Source: a virus. From it: a stretch of DNA of 41,515 nucleotides. The stretch is from positions 1-41,515 of IMG/VR virus record IMGVR_UViG_3300035099_000220. The stretch is one strand, 5' to 3'. Position numbers and translations under genes: made by a program. Every line of letters starts with the position of its first letter. Position 1 is the stretch's first letter. Positions 4,316 to 41,515 of the stretch are shown here, one piece after another. The notes beneath the pieces were generated by a model. It saw only the letters and a program-made list of their open reading frames with translations, had not been told where the DNA came from and did not search any database.

Positions 4316-5034
4316 TTACGTTACGTTTGTGATGACTCCGCACCTCCAAGGTGCTGTTACAAGCAGATTCGCCATCACTATCAACTGTCTCACATACGCC
4401 CATTCTGCTGTTCCTGACTTTGGTGGTGTCCACAGGAAATTAGCGTTCTGGTTGATTACAAACTGAATATAAGTTGTATTCAAAAACCAGATTGTGCCGT
4501 CATTGCAATAATTATCAGGAACGACTACAGCCCCATTAAATTCAAAACCCTTAAAGCCTACAGCAGCTATGTCAGCATGAGCTTCGCCCATAAAACGCTG
4601 CTGGGGCTGGATCCTTGACCAGAATTTATTCCAGATATCCTGTTTACAAACTATCAGGTCAGGCATTATATCGCCGTCTGTGCAGCTGCCATACATATCC
4701 TGAACTAAATCAAGGCTAAATGCACCGCCTGTGTAATCTACATTCGCCTTCCACCATGTCTTTTCATTTCTGTTGATGGTTGCATAAGTCGGAAAGTAAG
4801 TACCATCATCAATAGCGTTTTTCAGGCCATCTAAATCAAGCGACCCATTGCCTGTCCCATCTCCGTATATCTGTGTAGCAAGCAAATCCTTCATCGTATA
4901 GCCTGCTGCCTCCATCTTTGGATTCAGCAGACCTATAATCTCAATATCAGAATCCGCCTTTGCCAGGTCTGTCCCTGGAATGGTAACGTCCACATAGACG
5001 TTCTTCCAGTTTAGTTCCGCATCAGTTTTGTTAT
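4316..5034 (-). CDS. Major capsid protein, exon 2
   Basis: This open frame contains YVDVTIPGTDLAK, then ATQIYGDGTGNGS and later VCKQDIWNKFW and NCNDGTIWFLN-like segments. These are typical of the middle and C-terminal parts of an HK97-fold phage coat protein. There is no usable start with a ribosome site at its front. The frame continues upstream to about DNKTDAELNWK, where a group I intron ends. Joining 5928-5715 to 5034-4316 gives 311 codons including stop (310 residues), a normal coat-protein length. The exact splice points are my best phase-consistent choice and are not proven. Confidence 0.8.
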
Positions 5035-5714
5035 CATGAAGTCATTTAAACTTCACATCTACAGGTTACCCTGTAGCTCGGACTATATCATCCCTTTCGG
5101 GTCGGGCACTCGTGTCAGGTTTATTGGTCTGTAAATCCGCACCTGTTAGTCTCTGAACTTTCCTGCCTACAAACGATATTACATTCGGCAGGCTTAGCTG
5201 CTGATTGTCCTTTTCAGGACGTTCCAGCAATTCACCCGATTTGCCATGAAAAGCCTGACTGAGTTTCTTATTTAACTCTTTCATTTTAGCTCTAAATAAT
5301 CTGCCATAATAGATTTCATCTTTATTGAGTGTTCTGCCTTTCTTATATCTTGCTCTGCGGGACTTCATTTCTTGAAAAGTAAGAGCTAATTCAAGTTGCT
5401 CTCTTTTTATCTTTACATAAGGTTTGATAGCAAGAAGGAAATTCTTTGCTTGAATGTTACCAATCCAGAGTCTATAACATCCTTGACCCCTTAAAAGAGA
5501 GCCTTTAAATTCTTTATGGAGAGTCGCTAAATAACCAAGATGCTGGTTAGAAAGACATATATTAAGGCTAAATTGTGGAGTTCTTGCATATCCTGCCCGA
5601 GGTTTATGCTCCGAGATAGAAATTGAACCTTCTCCATCAAAGAATCCAGCTAAATAAGAAAGCTCCTCAGAACTTAACATGCCGCATATCTCCAATACGT
5701 ATGAGTCTGTCTGT
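5035..5714 (-). mobile_element. Group I self-splicing intron in the major capsid gene
   Basis: Reading the minus strand, the conserved core is visible in order. P element: GAATTGCTGGAA (5233-5222). P5 hairpin: GTCCT-GAAA-AGGAC (5220-5207). Q element: AATCAGCAGC (5206-5197). R element: GTTCAGAGACTA (5158-5147). S/P7 element: TGATATAGTC (5090-5081). P9 hairpin: CTACAGG-GTAA-CCTGTAG (5076-5059). P3 can form from AAATC and GATTT on either side of P4-P6. Exon 1 ending in T at 5715 and an intron ending in G at 5035 keep the reading frame. The 5' site has a possible 4-bp P1 with the required U.G pair. Boundaries are approximate to within tens of bases. Confidence 0.85.
5066..5680 (-). CDS. LAGLIDADG homing endonuclease encoded in the capsid intron
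   Basis: A 204-residue protein with a single LAGLIDADG motif at residues 9-18 (YLAGFFDGEG). Downstream comes the family-typical YVKIKREQLELALTF helix. I chose the ATG at 5680 because a GGAG sits 9 bases upstream; the longer frame begins with TTG at 5695. Single-motif members act as homodimers that cut an intronless allele so that repair copies the intron. The C-terminal 50 or so residues are read straight through the ribozyme core, since the P, Q, R and S elements are all inside the coding frame. Protein and RNA sequence are therefore constrained together. Confidence 0.88.
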   Translation of the reverse strand: MLSSEELSYLAGFFDGEGSISISEHKPRAGYARTPQFSLNICLSNQHLGYLATLHKEFKGSLLRGQGCYRLWIGNIQAKNFLLAIKPYVKIKREQLELALTFQEMKSRRARYKKGRTLNKDEIYYGRLFRAKMKELNKKLSQAFHGKSGELLERPEKDNQQLSLPNVISFVGRKVQRLTGADLQTNKPDTSARPERDDIVRATG

Positions 5715-5928
5715 AACTGGTATCAAATGGCCCACTACCTGAGAAACTACCACCTGGAAGTTTTCCATACATGATTGGCTGTCGCAGGGAATAACCGCCC
5801 TTGACAACTATATTATGTTTGGTTAGCAGTCTTACAAGTAATGGTGTTGCCTTAAAGACCTGATTTACAATATTAGGTAAATACCGTTTTTCAACTGCAA
5901 CATCCAAATCTTCGTACGTCGTTGGCAC
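5715..5928 (-). CDS. Major capsid protein, exon 1
   Basis: Starts with GTG at 5928, preceded by AAGGAG. The sequence MPTTYEDLDVAVEKRYLPNI and later GGYSLRQPIMYGKLPGG and GPFDTSY match the N-terminal arm and first beta segments expected of the coat protein that continues in exon 2. Without splicing the frame runs only to a stop at 5674. Coat homologues of this type continue from FDT-like residues into a NWK segment, which is exactly what joining to exon 2 restores. It follows the scaffold gene as in P22-like phages. Confidence 0.8.
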
Positions 5929-7644: not shown

Positions 7645-7693
7645 AAAATAAAAAAGCCTGCCAGAAGTATCTCAAGAAACTTCCGACAGGCTT
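7645..7693 (-). terminator. Intrinsic terminator inside the late operon
   Basis: On the minus strand AAGCCTGTCGGAAGT (7693-7679) pairs at all 15 positions, including two wobbles, with ACTTCTGGCAGGCTT (7668-7654). A U-rich run (TTTTTTATTTT) follows. It separates the terminase-portal genes from the basic-protein and capsid genes, so transcription of the rest needs partial read-through, antitermination or another promoter. Confidence 0.85.
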
Positions 7694-7731
7694 ACTCGTC
7701 CCCTGACTTTATTTAAACAGGCGAGTCAGGG
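7694..7731 (-). other. Possible H-type pseudoknot upstream of the terminator
   Basis: CCCTGAC (7731-7725) pairs with GTCAGGG (7707-7701). The 3' end of that arm and its loop also contain ACTCG (7726-7722), which can pair with CGAGT (7698-7694). The arrangement is compatible with a pseudoknot or two alternative hairpins next to the terminator stem. It lies after the stop of the 61-residue gene, so it is not a frameshift signal. Confidence 0.4.
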
Positions 7732-7754
7732 CTTTCGTGCTCTTGTCTTTACTA

Positions 7755-7940
7755 TTATGTTAATCCTATTTTAATATCATTAACACAGCTGTTTGCTTTT
7801 GTCAAGTCTCTCTTAAATGTAACAGAAATCTCTATAAAAATTCCATCTTCTTTTTCAACCCTCTTTTCTGTAATCCAGCCCCTTGCCGACTTTGCAAGGG
7901 TCTTAATCTGTGTTAAAACTTCTTCTAAATCTGTCAGCAT
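7755..7940 (-). CDS. 61-residue conserved-looking small protein
   Basis: The ATG overlaps the portal stop codon (TAATG). Residues 1-20 form a helix (MLTDLEEVLTQIKTLAKSA), followed by alternating hydrophobic strand residues (GIFIEISVTFKRD). It has no recognised motif. Tight coupling to the portal suggests a role in head assembly, but this is position only. It is the last gene before the internal terminator. Confidence 0.55.
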   Translation of the reverse strand: MLTDLEEVLTQIKTLAKSARGWITEKRVEKEDGIFIEISVTFKRDLTKANSCVNDIKIGLT

Positions 7941-13924: not shown

Positions 13925-14134
13925 ATGATACCATATACAGAAAAGGTCAAGACAATACAGAAAGCTATCTTAGACGGTAGGACGTTCCTGTTAGATACCT
14001 ACCTCGGTTTTTGTATTGTCGTAGGGATTGATGAAGAACATGCTATAACAGGTGAAGGAAATCACAGACGCTCCTGGGCAATATGCTCAAGAGAGATTGA
14101 TGAGTGGTATAATAAAATTAAAGAAAGGAGGTAA
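13925..14134 (+). CDS. 69-residue hypothetical protein
   Basis: The ATG at 13925 has AAAGGAGGTGAG at ideal distance; an upstream in-frame ATG at 13874 has none. The protein reads as a small beta-type domain (GRTFLLDTYLGFCIVVGIDEEHAITGEGNHRRSWAICSREIDEWYNKI). It is first in a plus-strand operon that opposes the late operon. No family is recognised. Confidence 0.6.
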   Translation: MIPYTEKVKTIQKAILDGRTFLLDTYLGFCIVVGIDEEHAITGEGNHRRSWAICSREIDEWYNKIKERR

Positions 14135-14139
14135 GAAAG

Positions 14140-14391
14140 ATGGAAGAAACTATGATGCAGATGCAGAGAAAGAAAGCATACGAGAAAATCAACGATGAGC
14201 TCTCCAAATACGGAGAGTTTATCGACCCTAGCATGGGATACTTCAGAGCGTATCTTGTCGGGACATTAGACAGACTTGTTTACGATGAAGGTAAGATGTC
14301 CGAAGAGGAAGCAAGACAGATTGAAGCGCTCATCGGAGACATCCCTGATGTCCCCGAGGAAGAAGAACACATAAGGTCTGACGGACGTTAG
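14140..14391 (+). CDS. 83-residue acidic hypothetical protein
   Basis: A perfect AAAGGAGGT precedes the ATG. The chain is helical and acidic, ending VPEEEEHIRSDGR. YFRAYLVGTLDRLVYDEGKMSEEEARQIEAL looks like a helix-loop-helix pair. Function unknown. It lies 5 bases after the preceding gene and is followed by a very GC-rich hairpin. Confidence 0.58.
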   Translation: MEETMMQMQRKKAYEKINDELSKYGEFIDPSMGYFRAYLVGTLDRLVYDEGKMSEEEARQIEALIGDIPDVPEEEEHIRSDGR

Positions 14392-14404
14392 GGAAAGGAG
14401 AGGC

Positions 14405-14440
14405 GAGGGGGCAGGTGTCCATGTATCTGCCTGCCCCCTC
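14405..14440 (+). terminator. Strong GC hairpin (no clear U-tract)
   Basis: GAGGGGGCAGG (14405-14415) pairs with CCTGCCCCCTC (14430-14440), an 11-bp perfect stem. An A-rich stretch follows instead of U, so it may act as a barrier, RNA-stability element or partial terminator. Its left arm shares the 15-mer GGGGCAGGTGTCCAT with 14962-14976. Confidence 0.5.
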
Positions 14441-14458
14441 AAAGAAAGAGGAGGCAAT

Positions 14459-14941
14459 ATGATAGCAGCAGTAAAAGTGGGCGAAGTTTTGATTTCAACA
14501 GCAAGAATAACCTCAAAAACAGATGGCAGGATTACCTTTCAGGATTGGATCCTGAAAGCTTTTGAAAAATCACAACTAAATAAAGATAAACTCATACAGG
14601 CCTACCAAGCAATCGGAGGCCCCTGGCTTCCGACATATAACCCATACGACTGGGCGTCATGGGACAAAAAAGACGCTTATCGTGGAAAAATATTGTTTTA
14701 TACTCAAGCTCATCGTTATATCTTGTTATCAACGAGCTATGAGTATAACAAGATTGAAAAGTGGAGAATTGATACCCATTTTTTGAATGGGAGGATTTGG
14801 GTATGGCACTCCATGCCCAAAGACGAGTTTCTTTCAATGTTAGAAAAATGGAGTTACCGCAGCAGAAGTAAAGACTTTTGTTGGGTGATTTCATTTTTAC
14901 TGGGTGTCTTTTTTTGCACCCAGGAAATAAAGGTAGAGTAG
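14459..14941 (+). CDS. 160-residue hypothetical protein
   Basis: Preceded by AAGAGGAGG. It has aromatic-rich stretches (GGPWLPTYNPYDWASWDKK; HFLNGRIWVWHSMPKDEFLSM) and a hydrophobic segment near the C-terminus (about 141-153, CWVISFLLGVFFC). The latter could be a membrane helix or part of the fold. No family is recognised. It is the largest gene of the rightward cluster, probably early or accessory. Confidence 0.55.
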   Translation: MIAAVKVGEVLISTARITSKTDGRITFQDWILKAFEKSQLNKDKLIQAYQAIGGPWLPTYNPYDWASWDKKDAYRGKILFYTQAHRYILLSTSYEYNKIEKWRIDTHFLNGRIWVWHSMPKDEFLSMLEKWSYRSRSKDFCWVISFLLGVFFCTQEIKVE

Positions 14942-14976
14942 TATGAAACTGTGTTAACAGCGGGGCAGGTGTCCAT

Positions 14977-15006
14977 AGGTGGGGTCGAAAGGCCTCACCT
15001 TTTTTT
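14977..15006 (+). terminator. Rho-independent terminator
   Basis: AGGTGGGGTC (14977-14986) pairs over 10 bp, with wobbles, with GGCCTCACCT (14991-15000) around a GAAA loop. Six T residues follow. It divides the rightward cluster into two parts, with genes continuing downstream at 15030. Confidence 0.85.
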
Positions 15007-15029
15007 ATGCTCTTCAGAAAGGAGGTACA

Positions 15030-15269
15030 ATGAAGGCAAAGGTGAGTAAAACGTGCGATTGCGCACGTATAATCAAAAGTTGTATCTGGAACAAAGCTAA
15101 ATTATATCAAGTGCTAAATACTTTTCAAGAACTCAATAGATACTACGATATTGACAATCAGATGGAAGTCGTTGTTCTTCAATGCAGGCGTTGCAAAAAA
15201 ATCTATTCAAGAGGAGGTAAAAAGAATGAAGGCAGTATTAATCAAAGGCAAACCTATCGCCTTTTTTGA
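15030..15269 (+). CDS. Small cysteine-rich (zinc-binding) protein
   Basis: I use the ATG at 15030, which has AAAGGAGG; the open frame extends farther upstream through the terminator. The 79-residue protein has TCDCARIIKSCIW near the start and QCRRCKKIYSRGG near residue 55, four to six cysteines that could hold a zinc ion. Function unknown. The 3' end overlaps the next gene. Confidence 0.58.
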   Translation: MKAKVSKTCDCARIIKSCIWNKAKLYQVLNTFQELNRYYDIDNQMEVVVLQCRRCKKIYSRGGKKNEGSINQRQTYRLF

Positions 15270-15429
15270 GGATAGTGTAGAGTTAGACCTTATCCTCGAA
15301 AAGTACAAAGCCAATCCTGACTTTCAGGTCAGGGATGCGACGATCTGTCCGCACTGTGGTGGGTGCGGTAAGGTCGTCAAGGGTGATAGGGTCTGTAATG
15401 GTATGGCAAGAAACGCATGGTTTGACTAA
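15226..15429 (+). CDS. 67-residue protein with CxxCGGCG zinc knuckle
   Basis: The ATG at 15226 follows GAGGAGG. A strand-helix start (MKAVLIKGKPIAFFEDSVELDLIL) is followed by ICPHCGGCGKVVKGDRVC, which resembles a DnaJ-like or rubredoxin-like zinc knuckle. It overlaps the previous gene by 44 bases in another frame, so they are probably co-expressed. Role unknown. Confidence 0.6.
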   Translation: MKAVLIKGKPIAFFEDSVELDLILEKYKANPDFQVRDATICPHCGGCGKVVKGDRVCNGMARNAWFD

Positions 15430-15446
15430 AAGAAAGGAGGTAAGAA

Positions 15447-15620
15447 GTGGAAAGCAATATAACGACAGATAAGGTAGATAAGATTGTAGATGAAATATAT
15501 ACACTCTACGGCACAGATTCTGGATTTCTCTTTACTCTGCCACCAGAGGACAGAATCATAGTAAGGCTAATTGTTTGGGTAGTCCTTAAAATACAAGAGA
15601 CAACGGAGGGCGTAGATTAG
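15447..15620 (+). CDS. 57-residue hypothetical protein (GTG start)
   Basis: GTG at 15447 stands 5 bases after AAAGGAGG. The protein is a helix (DKVDKIVDEIYTLYG), a short turn, and a hydrophobic segment (DRIIVRLIVWVVLKIQ) that may insert in a membrane or a protein core. It is the last gene of the rightward cluster, ending six bases before a 20-bp palindrome. Confidence 0.55.
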   Translation: MESNITTDKVDKIVDEIYTLYGTDSGFLFTLPPEDRIIVRLIVWVVLKIQETTEGVD

Positions 15621-18257: not shown

Positions 18258-18605
18258 TTAATTGTTCTGAATCTGAATCGTAAGACTTTCTAATTGCCTG
18301 AGCATAACCTTAGCTTCTTCCAGCCATTCACTCCACTTTTTGGCTTTATCAACTCCCTTCCATCTATTCTTCGCTTCGGGGTTTCCACAAATTCCATATT
18401 TTCGTTGAAGGGGGCAAGCATCACATGAAAGAGTATTACAATCATAATAGGTTTCACATAAAAAACAATCCTCCATATACCAGGATTCTCCTATTTCTCT
18501 TTTCATTTTCTCACTATCAATCTTATCTTCAGGGGGCTGTTTCTCTACCCACTTAATCATCCTTGTCCAATGAATAATAGATTTATCAACTGCATTTAGG
18601 CTCAT
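18258..18605 (-). CDS. Cysteine-rich early protein, paralogue of 23045-23404
   Basis: A 115-residue protein with the pattern HWTRMIKWVE, P-x-D, IGESWYMEDCFLC, CPLQRKYGICG and W-x-EWLEEAKVMLRQLESL. The same ordered residues occur in the gene at 23045-23404, so the two are duplicates separated by about 4.5 kb. Six or more conserved Cys suggest a zinc-stabilised core between two helices. The ATG is inside AAAGGAGAAACAATGA, coupled to the HNH gene. Function unknown. Confidence 0.68.
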   Translation of the reverse strand: MSLNAVDKSIIHWTRMIKWVEKQPPEDKIDSEKMKREIGESWYMEDCFLCETYYDCNTLSCDACPLQRKYGICGNPEAKNRWKGVDKAKKWSEWLEEAKVMLRQLESLTIQIQNN

Positions 18606-18973
18606 TGTTTCTCCTTTAATAATTGTAAATAAAGTGCTCTAAGATCACCAATTCGATATCTTGCAGGGGTCATTGCCCTTGCCTTTAAGGCCTCAAACTC
18701 TTTAAGGCCTATACGCTTGATGATGAGATCCCTGAACTGCTCGGGTTTCGTATGAGCGTAATATAAGTGGCAAGGGAAACATAAGACTATTAAATTGCGA
18801 GTATCAAAACGCACGTTGGCATACTTAACCGAGAAGATGTGATGAACACTCTTAACGTCTTTCCTGCCACACTTCTGGCAGGTGAACCTATCACGCACTC
18901 TGACGATATTTTTGGCAAGGTCATCAAGGTCTTTTAAAAGAACCTGCCGCTCGCTCTTAGGTTTTCTTTTCAT
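18602..18973 (-). CDS. HNH endonuclease, NinG/Rap-like
   Basis: A 123-residue protein. The HNH region runs from RVRDRFTCQKCGRKDVKSVHHIFSV through RNLIVLCFPCHLYYAH (about 26-77), with two CxxC zinc pairs and the HH catalytic motif. An RFDTRNL segment and an IKRIG tail recall lambda NinG (Rap) Holliday-junction nucleases. It lies in an early operon near SSB-like and nuclease genes, which supports a recombination role. A restriction-like or homing HNH remains possible. Confidence 0.72.
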   Translation of the reverse strand: MKRKPKSERQVLLKDLDDLAKNIVRVRDRFTCQKCGRKDVKSVHHIFSVKYANVRFDTRNLIVLCFPCHLYYAHTKPEQFRDLIIKRIGLKEFEALKARAMTPARYRIGDLRALYLQLLKEKQ

Positions 18974-23631: not shown

Positions 23632-23660
23632 AGATTACCACAACATTTAACTTTTGTCAA
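23632..23660 (-). promoter_or_regulatory. Leftward early promoter
   Basis: TTGACA (23660-23655), 17-bp spacer, TAATCT (23637-23632) on the minus strand, directed at the early operon. The -35 is within ACTTGACAAA, also found in the rightward promoter and the promoter at 25640-25645. Confidence 0.85.
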
Positions 23661-23712
23661 GTGGTTTTTATATTTTTTCTCCTAATGGAAATATAAATTA
23701 ATATTATTTAAC

Positions 23713-24968: not shown

Positions 24969-25451
24969 CTATTGACTATCAATATTAAAGTCTTGAATAG
25001 ACTTTGATTGCATCCATGGGTGTATTGCACAATGACATTTATTACAAAGAGGAACGATATTTAATGCATCATTTATGCCTCCATTTTTTAGAAGTATAAT
25101 ATGGTGACTTACAGATGACTCCTTACCACAAATAAAACAATTGGATAAAATATTGAAAAACTTATTAGATAAAATACTAAAAGATTTTGATTCAGTAAAC
25201 TGCTTTCTAACTAAATTATATGGGCTTAATCGTTGGAATTTAATATTAGAAGCATGAATCAATGCATCTAATTTATATAGTTTTGGTTTATTTTCTAAAT
25301 CTAAATGTAATGCTTTAAGGAAATTTATAATTTTACAATAATTTTTATTTTCAAGCTTTCTTATTCTATCTCGCTTTCTTCGTTTGTTCCACAATCTCTG
25401 AGCTTTTTGAGCCTGTATTCGAAGTTGTTTACCAAGATTTTTTTGCTTCAT
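24969..25451 (-). CDS. Free-standing HNH endonuclease
   Basis: 160 residues. The N-terminal 30 are very basic (KQLRIQAQKAQRLWNKRRKRDRIRKLENK). The HNH core is at about 107-145 (CFICGKESSVSHHIILLKNGG ... NIVPLCNKCHCAIHP), with the HH motif and two CxxC pairs. There is no RuvC and no PLMP-type N-terminal motif, so it is not an IscB or IshB by motif. It lies directly behind a structured transcript with its own promoter, so it may be a homing or mobile element of an undescribed kind. It is AT-rich compared with the late genes. Confidence 0.75.
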   Translation of the reverse strand: MKQKNLGKQLRIQAQKAQRLWNKRRKRDRIRKLENKNYCKIINFLKALHLDLENKPKLYKLDALIHASNIKFQRLSPYNLVRKQFTESKSFSILSNKFFNILSNCFICGKESSVSHHIILLKNGGINDALNIVPLCNKCHCAIHPWMQSKSIQDFNIDSQ

Positions 25452-25487
25452 TTCTAAACGGGAGTTTCACTATGCCAGAAACGAGAA

Positions 25488-25608
25488 ACCCCTGATATTT
25501 CTATCAAGGGTCCCTCAAAATGGGGAGAAAGCAGGTGAGCTAAGCCTGCGCTTAAAAAAGCCAAATTATAATTAATAATTAGCTTCACTTTCCTCCCCAT
25601 TTCTAAAA
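25488..25608 (-). ncRNA. Structured RNA candidate upstream of the HNH gene
   Basis: From a promoter at 25616-25645 the transcript would start near 25608. AAATGGGGAGGAAAG (25602-25588) closes over CTTTCTCCCCATTT (25531-25518), 14 bp with one bulged G. Inside are hairpins AATTAT-TAATT-ATAATT (25580-25564), GCTT-TTTT-AAGC (25561-25550) and GCAGG...CCTGC (25549-25531). A 10-bp hairpin with a GAAA loop (25511-25488) follows. An ORF of 48 codons (25600-25454) also spans it, so a coding alternative exists. No known RNA motif is recognised. Confidence 0.55.
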
Positions 25609-25615
25609 CAATTCA

Positions 25616-25645
25616 ATTATAAAACTAAAAAATCTTTTTTGTCAA
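25616..25645 (-). promoter_or_regulatory. Near-consensus promoter for the RNA-HNH unit
   Basis: TTGACA (25645-25640), 18-bp spacer, TATAAT (25621-25616) on the minus strand. This is the closest match to consensus in the window, in the gap just after the holin gene. Confidence 0.88.
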
Positions 25646-25646
25646 G

Positions 25647-26081
25647 TCAATGATTCCCCTGCACGTCCTTGGTCTTCTCATAGCTCCTGTATAGTCCGAA
25701 TCCAAGCATACCAGAGAGCAACACAAGCAAATCTCCAACATCTAAAGATGGCGGCGGAGTTAAATCAGGTCGGTAGAGTTTTATTGCCCATGCAATAAGT
25801 GGATTCATAATATAATGGTACGCTAATCCGAATCCGCATACCCATCCGCAGAAAGGACGCCATCCTGAAACAAATATGTTTGGATGCTTGGCTTCTTCAA
25901 GGTTAACAGCGACCTGTGCCTGCTGAGACATAGCCTCAATCTCCATTGCCTTCTGCTCAATCTCAGCCATCTTGACAGGGTCCTTGCCCGTAATTGCAGT
26001 CCTTATATCCTTTGCAAGACCGCCTATGCCTTCAAAAACAGGCTTTATACCCGATGAGAATATTGTCTCAAAAATGTTCAT
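25647..26081 (-). CDS. Holin of the 3-TM (GTA-holin) type
   Basis: 144 residues. An N-terminal amphipathic part (about 1-65, KPVFEGIGGLAKDIRTAITGK; coiled EIEQKAMEIEAMSQQAQ) precedes HPNIFVSGWRPFCGWVCGFGLAYHYIMNPLIAW and LDVGDLLVLLSGMLGFGLYRS. This signature matches holins of three membrane segments. Starting at a TAATG overlap behind a 33-residue membrane gene and the SleB-like hydrolase, it is the last gene of the late operon and the natural lysis-timing protein. Confidence 0.85.
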   Translation of the reverse strand: MNIFETIFSSGIKPVFEGIGGLAKDIRTAITGKDPVKMAEIEQKAMEIEAMSQQAQVAVNLEEAKHPNIFVSGWRPFCGWVCGFGLAYHYIMNPLIAWAIKLYRPDLTPPPSLDVGDLLVLLSGMLGFGLYRSYEKTKDVQGNH

Positions 26082-40733: not shown

Positions 40734-41515
40734 CTAAATCTCCAGGTAAACCAGATGCCCTGAAACTGCATTTGCACCTGATAAATTAAGCACCAAAGCC
40801 GCACCTGCTGCTGTTTCAAATAATCCAACTGGCGAATAAGGAGCAGAGATACCGCCATTGGCAGCAAACGACATATCGCCAGTGATTGCCGTTCCAGCAG
40901 CCCCACTCCTGAAATAAACCGTTGTTGCTGCTGCACAGACTAAGGCATATTGCAAAACCCTGATTTTCTTTCCAGCAACTGCTGCCACAATTGTATTATC
41001 TCCTGAGGCAGCCACATCTATTACAGCGAATTTTGGAGTTAAGGCAGTAGTTCCCGAATAAATAGTTCCTGTTTCCTGAGACGCTGAAATTTGACCGATT
41101 AAATTAGTTCCTGCTGGGATTGAAGGTAAAGTTACAACATCAACATTTCCAATATTGTTATCCCCTGGTGCAATTGAGGCAATATCCACATCGCCAATGT
41201 TATTAGTTCCTGCTGGTAACGCACTTCCAATTGAAACCGAACCATCTACAGTTAAAGAACCAGCATTATCGTCAACATGAACTACATTTGTAATTCCAGT
41301 AAGGGTTGTAACCGTTCCTATGTTCCAGGTCCCTGATTGGGTAACAGCTAAAGTAGTATTTAAAATATCAACTTGTAAGTTTCCAGTAGCATCAACAGCT
41401 AATATCTGATAGTTAGTTCCATCAGTTCCTAAAACAAGATTTCCCTTGTATGCGGCATCAACCGCTGTTCCATCAGCATATTGTTCTCCTGCTCCACCCC
41501 CGCTTAATACATCTA
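40734..41515 (-). CDS. Repeat-rich virion protein, C-terminal part (continues from base 1)
   Basis: This is the 3' part of the gene that starts at 1011. Codons are in phase with base 1 (the codon ending at 1 is followed by 41411), and the frame is open to the window end. It contains VDIASIAPGDNNIGNVDVVTLPSIPAGTN. A terminal domain of about 105 residues follows (FAVIDVAASGDNTIVAAVAGKKI ... GLFETAAGAALVLNLSGANAVSGHLVYLEI). I recognise that last domain as a recurrent ending of phage head or tail surface proteins. The 104 bases at the end duplicate 1-104. Confidence 0.8.
   Translation of the reverse strand, partial: DVLSGGGAGEQYADGTAVDAAYKGNLVLGTDGTNYQILAVDATGNLQVDILNTTLAVTQSGTWNIGTVTTLTGITNVVHVDDNAGSLTVDGSVSIGSALPAGTNNIGDVDIASIAPGDNNIGNVDVVTLPSIPAGTNLIGQISASQETGTIYSGTTALTPKFAVIDVAASGDNTIVAAVAGKKIRVLQYALVCAAATTVYFRSGAAGTAITGDMSFAANGGISAPYSPVGLFETAAGAALVLNLSGANAVSGHLVYLEI
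41412..41515. repeat. Right copy of the 104-bp end overlap
   Basis: Exact copy of 1-104. Circularise by dropping one copy. Confidence 0.95.

Follow-up and report, generated by a model that had tools for sequence, protein, structure and literature searches.

The DNA just past the holin gene of this phage may well hold an HNH gene of the homing-endonuclease type, equipped with a promoter of its own and a cis-acting structured leader, a reading that we hold with moderate confidence. It draws on a perfect promoter, a strand-specific fold, the low GC content of the gene, its missing Shine-Dalgarno sequence, the sharing of HNH alone with other phages, a compact unit in two relatives, the structured regions upstream of phage HNH genes and a pairing at the start site. 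If it is true, selfish phage nuclease genes that carry a promoter and a structured leader of their own would gain an example from outside the T4-like phages.

The window, meaning the whole stretch of DNA that was analysed (41,515 nucleotides), carries a direct terminal repeat of 104 bp at 1–104 and 41412–41515. The window is the whole virus record and, given this repeat, probably a complete phage genome of ~41.4 kb; judged from its sequence, the genome is probably circular or terminally redundant. Terminase, portal, capsid and tail-type proteins are encoded. Searches of the phage collection and IMG/VR with the holin, terminase, tail protein and portal revealed no close relative of the phage: the portal and tail protein had no tblastn match, and the nearest terminase relatives were 25–26% identical. 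No close relative with an empty HNH site was found in these two sources either. The late genes lie on the minus strand and finish with a cell-wall hydrolase and then a GTA-type holin. Promoter, leader and HNH gene follow on the same strand immediately past the holin, and the HNH gene is free-standing, with the holin on one side and a convergent gene on the other. The features of the locus, in 5' to 3' order, are:

25647–26081, minus strand: upstream neighbour, a GTA_holin_3TM holin gene (PF11351, E = 8e-15), the final lysis gene of the late operon
25616–25645, minus strand: sigma-70 promoter TTGACA-18-TATAAT, 12/12 consensus, just past the holin stop codon
25619–25636, minus strand: part of the promoter spacer, with complementarity to the HNH start region (inverted repeat I2)
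25453–25609, minus strand: structured leader RNA, predicted 5' part of the transcript (z = −5.5, strand-specific)
25590–25603, minus strand: 5' arm of the 14-bp closing stem (inverted repeat I3 and ensemble pairing)
25557–25586, minus strand: AU-rich inner hairpin, GGCTTTTTT (−7.5 kcal/mol), followed by a six-U run
25531–25549, minus strand: second inner hairpin, GCAGG/CCTGC (pair probability 0.31; alternative TAAGC/GCTTA, 0.68)
25517–25530, minus strand: 3' arm of the 14-bp closing stem (inverted repeat I3 and ensemble pairing)
25483–25516, minus strand: 15-bp hairpin with a GAAA tetraloop (GNRA; pair probabilities 0.96–1.0)
25464–25482, minus strand: small hairpin GTTTC/GAAAC ahead of the HNH start codon (pair probability 0.83)
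25434–25451, minus strand: HNH start codon region, complementary to 25619–25636, with no Shine-Dalgarno sequence
24969–25451, minus strand: free-standing HNH gene encoding P0001, 160 aa (27% GC, genome 40% GC)
25011–25145, minus strand: HNH domain, residues 103–147 (PF01844, E = 1.4e-5, above the cut-off; alignment A4)

Promoter and folded leader

The promoter that an earlier note on this DNA had called near-consensus is exact, reading TTGACA-18-TATAAT at 25645–25616 on the minus strand. It is the sole 12/12 site with a spacer of 15–19 in the 41.5-kb genome (chance expectation 0.05), and its predicted +1 lies near 25609. The extended −35 element CTTGACAAAA has exact copies on the same strand at 7797–7806 and 23652–23661. 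At 7650–7806 (minus strand), the ~150 nt downstream of a second promoter-like CTTGACAAAA contain a CCCTGACT/AGTCAGGG hairpin as well as a long hairpin of terminator type with a T tract; judging by its sequence, this stretch resembles a unit for a small RNA or an attenuator.

The same note had described a folded transcript upstream of the free HNH gene, made of a 14-bp closing stem around three hairpins plus a GNRA-capped hairpin. The transcript fold was borne out, with a strand-specific z of about −5 and the HNH start at 25451. The leader folded at −63.8 kcal/mol compared with −40.9 ± 4.2 for shuffles (z = −5.5, 0/200 shuffles as good), and the opposite strand of the segment folded more weakly (−46.2 kcal/mol, z = −3.7). 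The closing stem, which has one bulged G and spans ~90 nt, was robust in the ensemble (pair probabilities 0.86–1.0 for the 10 of its 14 pairs that were measured), as was the GNRA-capped hairpin. The three inner hairpins stood only in part. The base of the AU-rich one was firm (0.9–0.99), but GCAGG/CCTGC and TAAGC/GCTTA are mutually exclusive, so that two inner hairpins rather than three coexist at once.

The fold signal is strong yet not singular in the genome, as the leader ranked 18th of 1656 segments in a coarse genome-wide scan of fold z-scores, and the 17 further segments reached its significance or better. The strongest folds (z to −8.3) clustered at 14000–15600 on the plus strand, within a short series of small genes encoded on that strand, with a terminator-like hairpin at about 14970–15010 and another hairpin at about 14405–14440. 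The leader fold could be mostly intergenic debris, that is, late-operon terminators beside a promoter with no joint function. The 17 segments would fit this explanation, as would the many phage HNH genes that directly follow an ordinary terminator hairpin. However, a closing stem over ~90 nt is unusual in a terminator and, since the promoter precedes the fold, the fold would be transcribed as an HNH leader; we regard debris as improbable.

The AU-rich hairpin with its six U forms a weak terminator-like element, and the inner 9 bp of the GNRA-capped hairpin, followed by TTTCTCGTTTCT, may act as an imperfect terminator. Both the U run behind the first hairpin and the U-rich tail of the GNRA-capped one suggest attenuation, and the stems that bear them would insulate or attenuate transcription. 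No canonical terminator was called at the locus, neither of the two U-tailed hairpins qualifying, which weighs against the leader reading.

The segment might instead be a stand-alone phage small RNA of ~125–130 nt that ends at the GNRA-capped hairpin and either acts in trans or caps the late operon at its 3' end, the HNH gene being incidental. The best promoter of the genome sits at the very beginning of the fold, and a promoter-hairpin-terminator unit of similar size occurs at about 7655–7806. The fold has ~40% GC, about the level of the genome, compared with 27% for the HNH ORF, a hint of separate origins. A RybB-like match in the terminator part (27 bits, E = 0.002 locally) was rejected, as it stayed under the gathering score of 40 and, with E = 0.18 over the whole window, fell within genome-wide chance. 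The last hairpin also lacks a strong U tract, and no relatives of the sequence were found. A small RNA is a possible but unlikely explanation of the locus.

The 48-codon ORF across the fold, which the earlier note had offered as an alternative reading, exists at 25600–25454 (minus strand) and gained no support. Its frame is open for 48 codons, but its ATG lacks a Shine-Dalgarno sequence (−0.9 kcal/mol), and tblastn found no relative in phages or IMG/VR. A GTG inside the frame, which would give 44 codons, is preceded by the Shine-Dalgarno-like GGGGAGG; this motif is just 3 nt away and hidden in the closing stem, and the near-perfect long stems constrain the sequence as RNA. We consider a protein encoded over the leader fold hardly credible.

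Pairing at the translation start

No Shine-Dalgarno sequence was detected for the HNH gene (−3.9 kcal/mol), compared with −8 to −20 kcal/mol for many other genes of the phage. The extended duplex between the promoter spacer and the start region reached −15.6 kcal/mol, whereas shuffles gave −7.9 ± 2.2 and 3–5 of 1000 were as good. The leader reading can be drawn as follows. The HNH gene would have settled at the end of the late (lysis) operon, along with a sigma-70 promoter of its own and a 5' leader of ~155 nt, which would act in cis. In a long read-through RNA, the HNH start region would pair with the promoter-spacer sequence. The 25619–25636 arm is predicted to be present in read-through transcripts and missing from those starting at 25609, and translation would then depend on the promoter used.

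Two results on this pairing weigh against the leader reading. The modelled cost of opening the start site differed modestly, by 0.2–2.2 kcal/mol, between the own-promoter transcript (5.8 kcal/mol) and read-through transcripts (6.0–8.0 kcal/mol), and 175 of 4148 genome-sampled 40-mers paired equally well with the AT-rich start region. Because the modelled effect is small, we regard start pairing, and the translational switch that would follow from it, as plausible but unproven.

Such an arrangement has precedents, since in I-TevI, segB and mobE the promoter lies within the arm that sequesters the start (PMC2988022). The window locus resembles T4 segB, the I-TevI family and Aeh1 mobE in that an intergenic nuclease gene of a phage has a promoter to itself, that a sequence around this promoter is able to pair with the translation start, and that the gene is patchily spread over unrelated phages; with mobE it also shares the HNH domain. 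It differs in several respects, which speak against the leader reading too. The T4 endonuclease genes sequester a Shine-Dalgarno sequence, whereas the window gene has none to sequester, a large branched fold bigger than the known hairpins lies between its two arms, and the modelled effect on start accessibility is small.

The HNH protein, its family and the mobility of a relative

As the earlier note had claimed, P0001 is an HNH-only protein: domain searches of its 160 aa matched HNH at residues 105–144 and found no RuvC, and PF14239 (RRXRR)/PLMP was not listed at E ≤ 10. The domain occupies the C-terminal part and closes with the family motif CHxxIHPW. The N-terminus is rich in lysine and arginine, and its first ~37 residues, which are basic, were found in the window protein alone and are absent from the family relatives. 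Residues 3–50 form a basic extension that is predicted to be helical, in an AlphaFold model of P0001 alone that is of low confidence (pLDDT 57.5).

Searches with P0001 by itself or with narrow patterns gave only the generic HNH core or nothing, and the CHxxIHPW family was recovered by a scan with degenerate HNH patterns. Identity to P0001 was 59% over the HNH for L017, 37% over residues 55–151 for L018, L019 and L020, and 42% for L021. The family-wide ending is HHIIxLKxGG...CHxxIHPW, with scattered upstream positions R82, F85 and K89 (alignment A4). In tblastx comparisons, HNH was the only feature common to the window phage and four otherwise unrelated phage contigs. Sequence comparison thus defines a small CHxxIHPW HNH family spread over unrelated phages, and its patchy distribution fits a selfish nuclease gene. 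In a non-structural region of the window phage, pattern matching picked out a further ORF, at 18602–18973 (minus strand), whose zinc motif (C..C, HH, C..CH) is HNH-like; its upstream z is −0.2, with no structured leader.

The L018 and L020 phages are related, with about 71–86% identity where alignable. Their HNH gene and its folded 5' segment form a unit of ~0.7 kb (L018:1209–1945, L020:1256–1945) that reaches 99.7% identity over 662 bp, with a further 38 bp past a 47-nt internal indel, and the sequence beside it is ~75% identical or unalignable. The unit starts at the folded 5' segment (edge CATATTG) and stops ~80 nt after the stop codon. Synteny holds within 1.2 kb on one side, so the two copies may occupy a single locus whose neighbours were rearranged instead of two sites of insertion; under either reading, the unit spread recently with its folded segment included. 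Nuclease genes are known from the edges of regions that phages exchange (PMC10448857). The window gene shares with free-standing phage HNH homing endonucleases its intergenic position, its HNH active-site domain and, within its family, patchy presence among unrelated phages and recent spread. It differs from known phage homing endonucleases in that its family is small and has HNH as its only Pfam architecture.

The 5' RNA and known RNA-associated nucleases

The fold z of the 5' segment, −5.5 in the window, was about −3.3 to −5.1 in L018 and L020 and −3.4 in L017, where ~120 nt separate the segment from the start. L021 (z about −1.3) has no structured leader. Three of the four family lineages have, or probably have, a structured 5' segment, with unalike sequences, and no sequence or structure common to the 5' RNAs of the four could be detected. 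A covariance model built from the lone window sequence found no convincing homologue in 57 sources; the candidate L094 (16.5 bits, E = 0.029) was discarded, as the match falls on its terminator-type hairpin. Among exact or degenerate leader patterns, a 17-mer had 0 matches in IMG/VR. A second pattern had four there, two of them in near-identical sequence and none with further similarity or an HNH relative. Nothing tRNA-like was found in the segments upstream of the relatives' genes, and that reading was dropped. That no homologue attests to conservation of the fold and that L021 lacks a structured leader both weigh against the leader reading.

Upstream regions of phage HNH genes (n = 47) had a median z of −2.5, compared with −1.5 for other genes (n = 244; p = 4e-4), and z was below −4 in 23% and 9%, respectively. 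Many of the best-folding HNH upstream regions are plain terminator hairpins. Since HNH genes as a class have structured upstream regions, a folded segment alone is no sign of an RNA partner.

The earlier note had likened the locus to RNA-plus-nuclease mobile elements of HEARO/OMEGA style. The mobile part of this comparison stands, in that the L018/L020 relative moves with its folded 5' segment; membership in HEARO/OMEGA does not, as RF02033, RuvC, PF14239/PLMP and an RNA homologue were all lacking. A search with cmscan at 25300–25760 detected no RF02033 at gathering level or at E ≤ 5, and none was found at the relatives' loci at E ≤ 1. The Rfam check that the note had proposed (RF02033, group I, group II) gave no match at this site, not even with E ≤ 5, and no Rfam family had an accepted match there. 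The NCBIfam model guided_IscB scored 18 bits against P0001 (cut-off 175), the similarity not extending beyond the generic HNH motif.

IshB-like proteins are small relatives of IscB that carry an HNH domain and have PLMP as their defining feature. P0001 resembles them in its small size and its HNH domain, but it has neither a PF14239 match nor PLMP, and there is no IscB-type RNA. HEARO/IscB-omegaRNA (RF02033; PMC9755519) is alike in its structured RNA directly 5' of an HNH-containing nuclease gene and in being a small mobile unit that occurs in viruses; it differs in that the window protein has 160 aa and no RuvC or RRXRR/PLMP, and in that the window RNA is not conserved across relatives. TIGR-Tas TasH (PMC12045711) is also a phage HNH nuclease gene adjoining an RNA, but P0001 gave no Nop match and the locus has no tandem or interspaced repeat array.

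These comparisons bear on whether the RNA is a guide or cofactor of the HNH protein, in an OMEGA-like system reduced to HNH. Its HEARO-like place directly 5' of the nuclease gene, the basic N-terminal extension, engineered IscB as the best PDB sequence match of P0001 (E = 1.5e-5) and the travel of the L018/L020 folded segment with the HNH gene from the unit edge would agree with a partnership. On the other side, the unmatched RF02033, RuvC and PF14239 models, an IscB similarity that stops at the generic HNH motif, the unstructured L021 and the relatives without a basic extension argue against it; a guide scaffold should also be conserved, yet the RNAs of the four lineages share nothing detectable. 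RNA-guided action of the protein is unlikely, and we rate a partnership as quite improbable. It would make the locus the smallest HNH-RNA mobile system known to us. More doubtful still is that the CHxxIHPW family constitutes a new phage class of RNA-associated mobile nuclease, lacking RuvC and PLMP and using its own 5'-edge RNA.

A group I or group II intron core was not found at the locus. The sole RF00028 match in the window is a group I intron at 5059–5309 (minus strand, 77.6 bits), overlapped by a LAGLIDADG ORF at 5066–5695 (minus strand). As this intron lies between the capsid C-terminal ORF (4316–4993) and an upstream coding sequence (5674–5928), the major capsid gene seems to be split.
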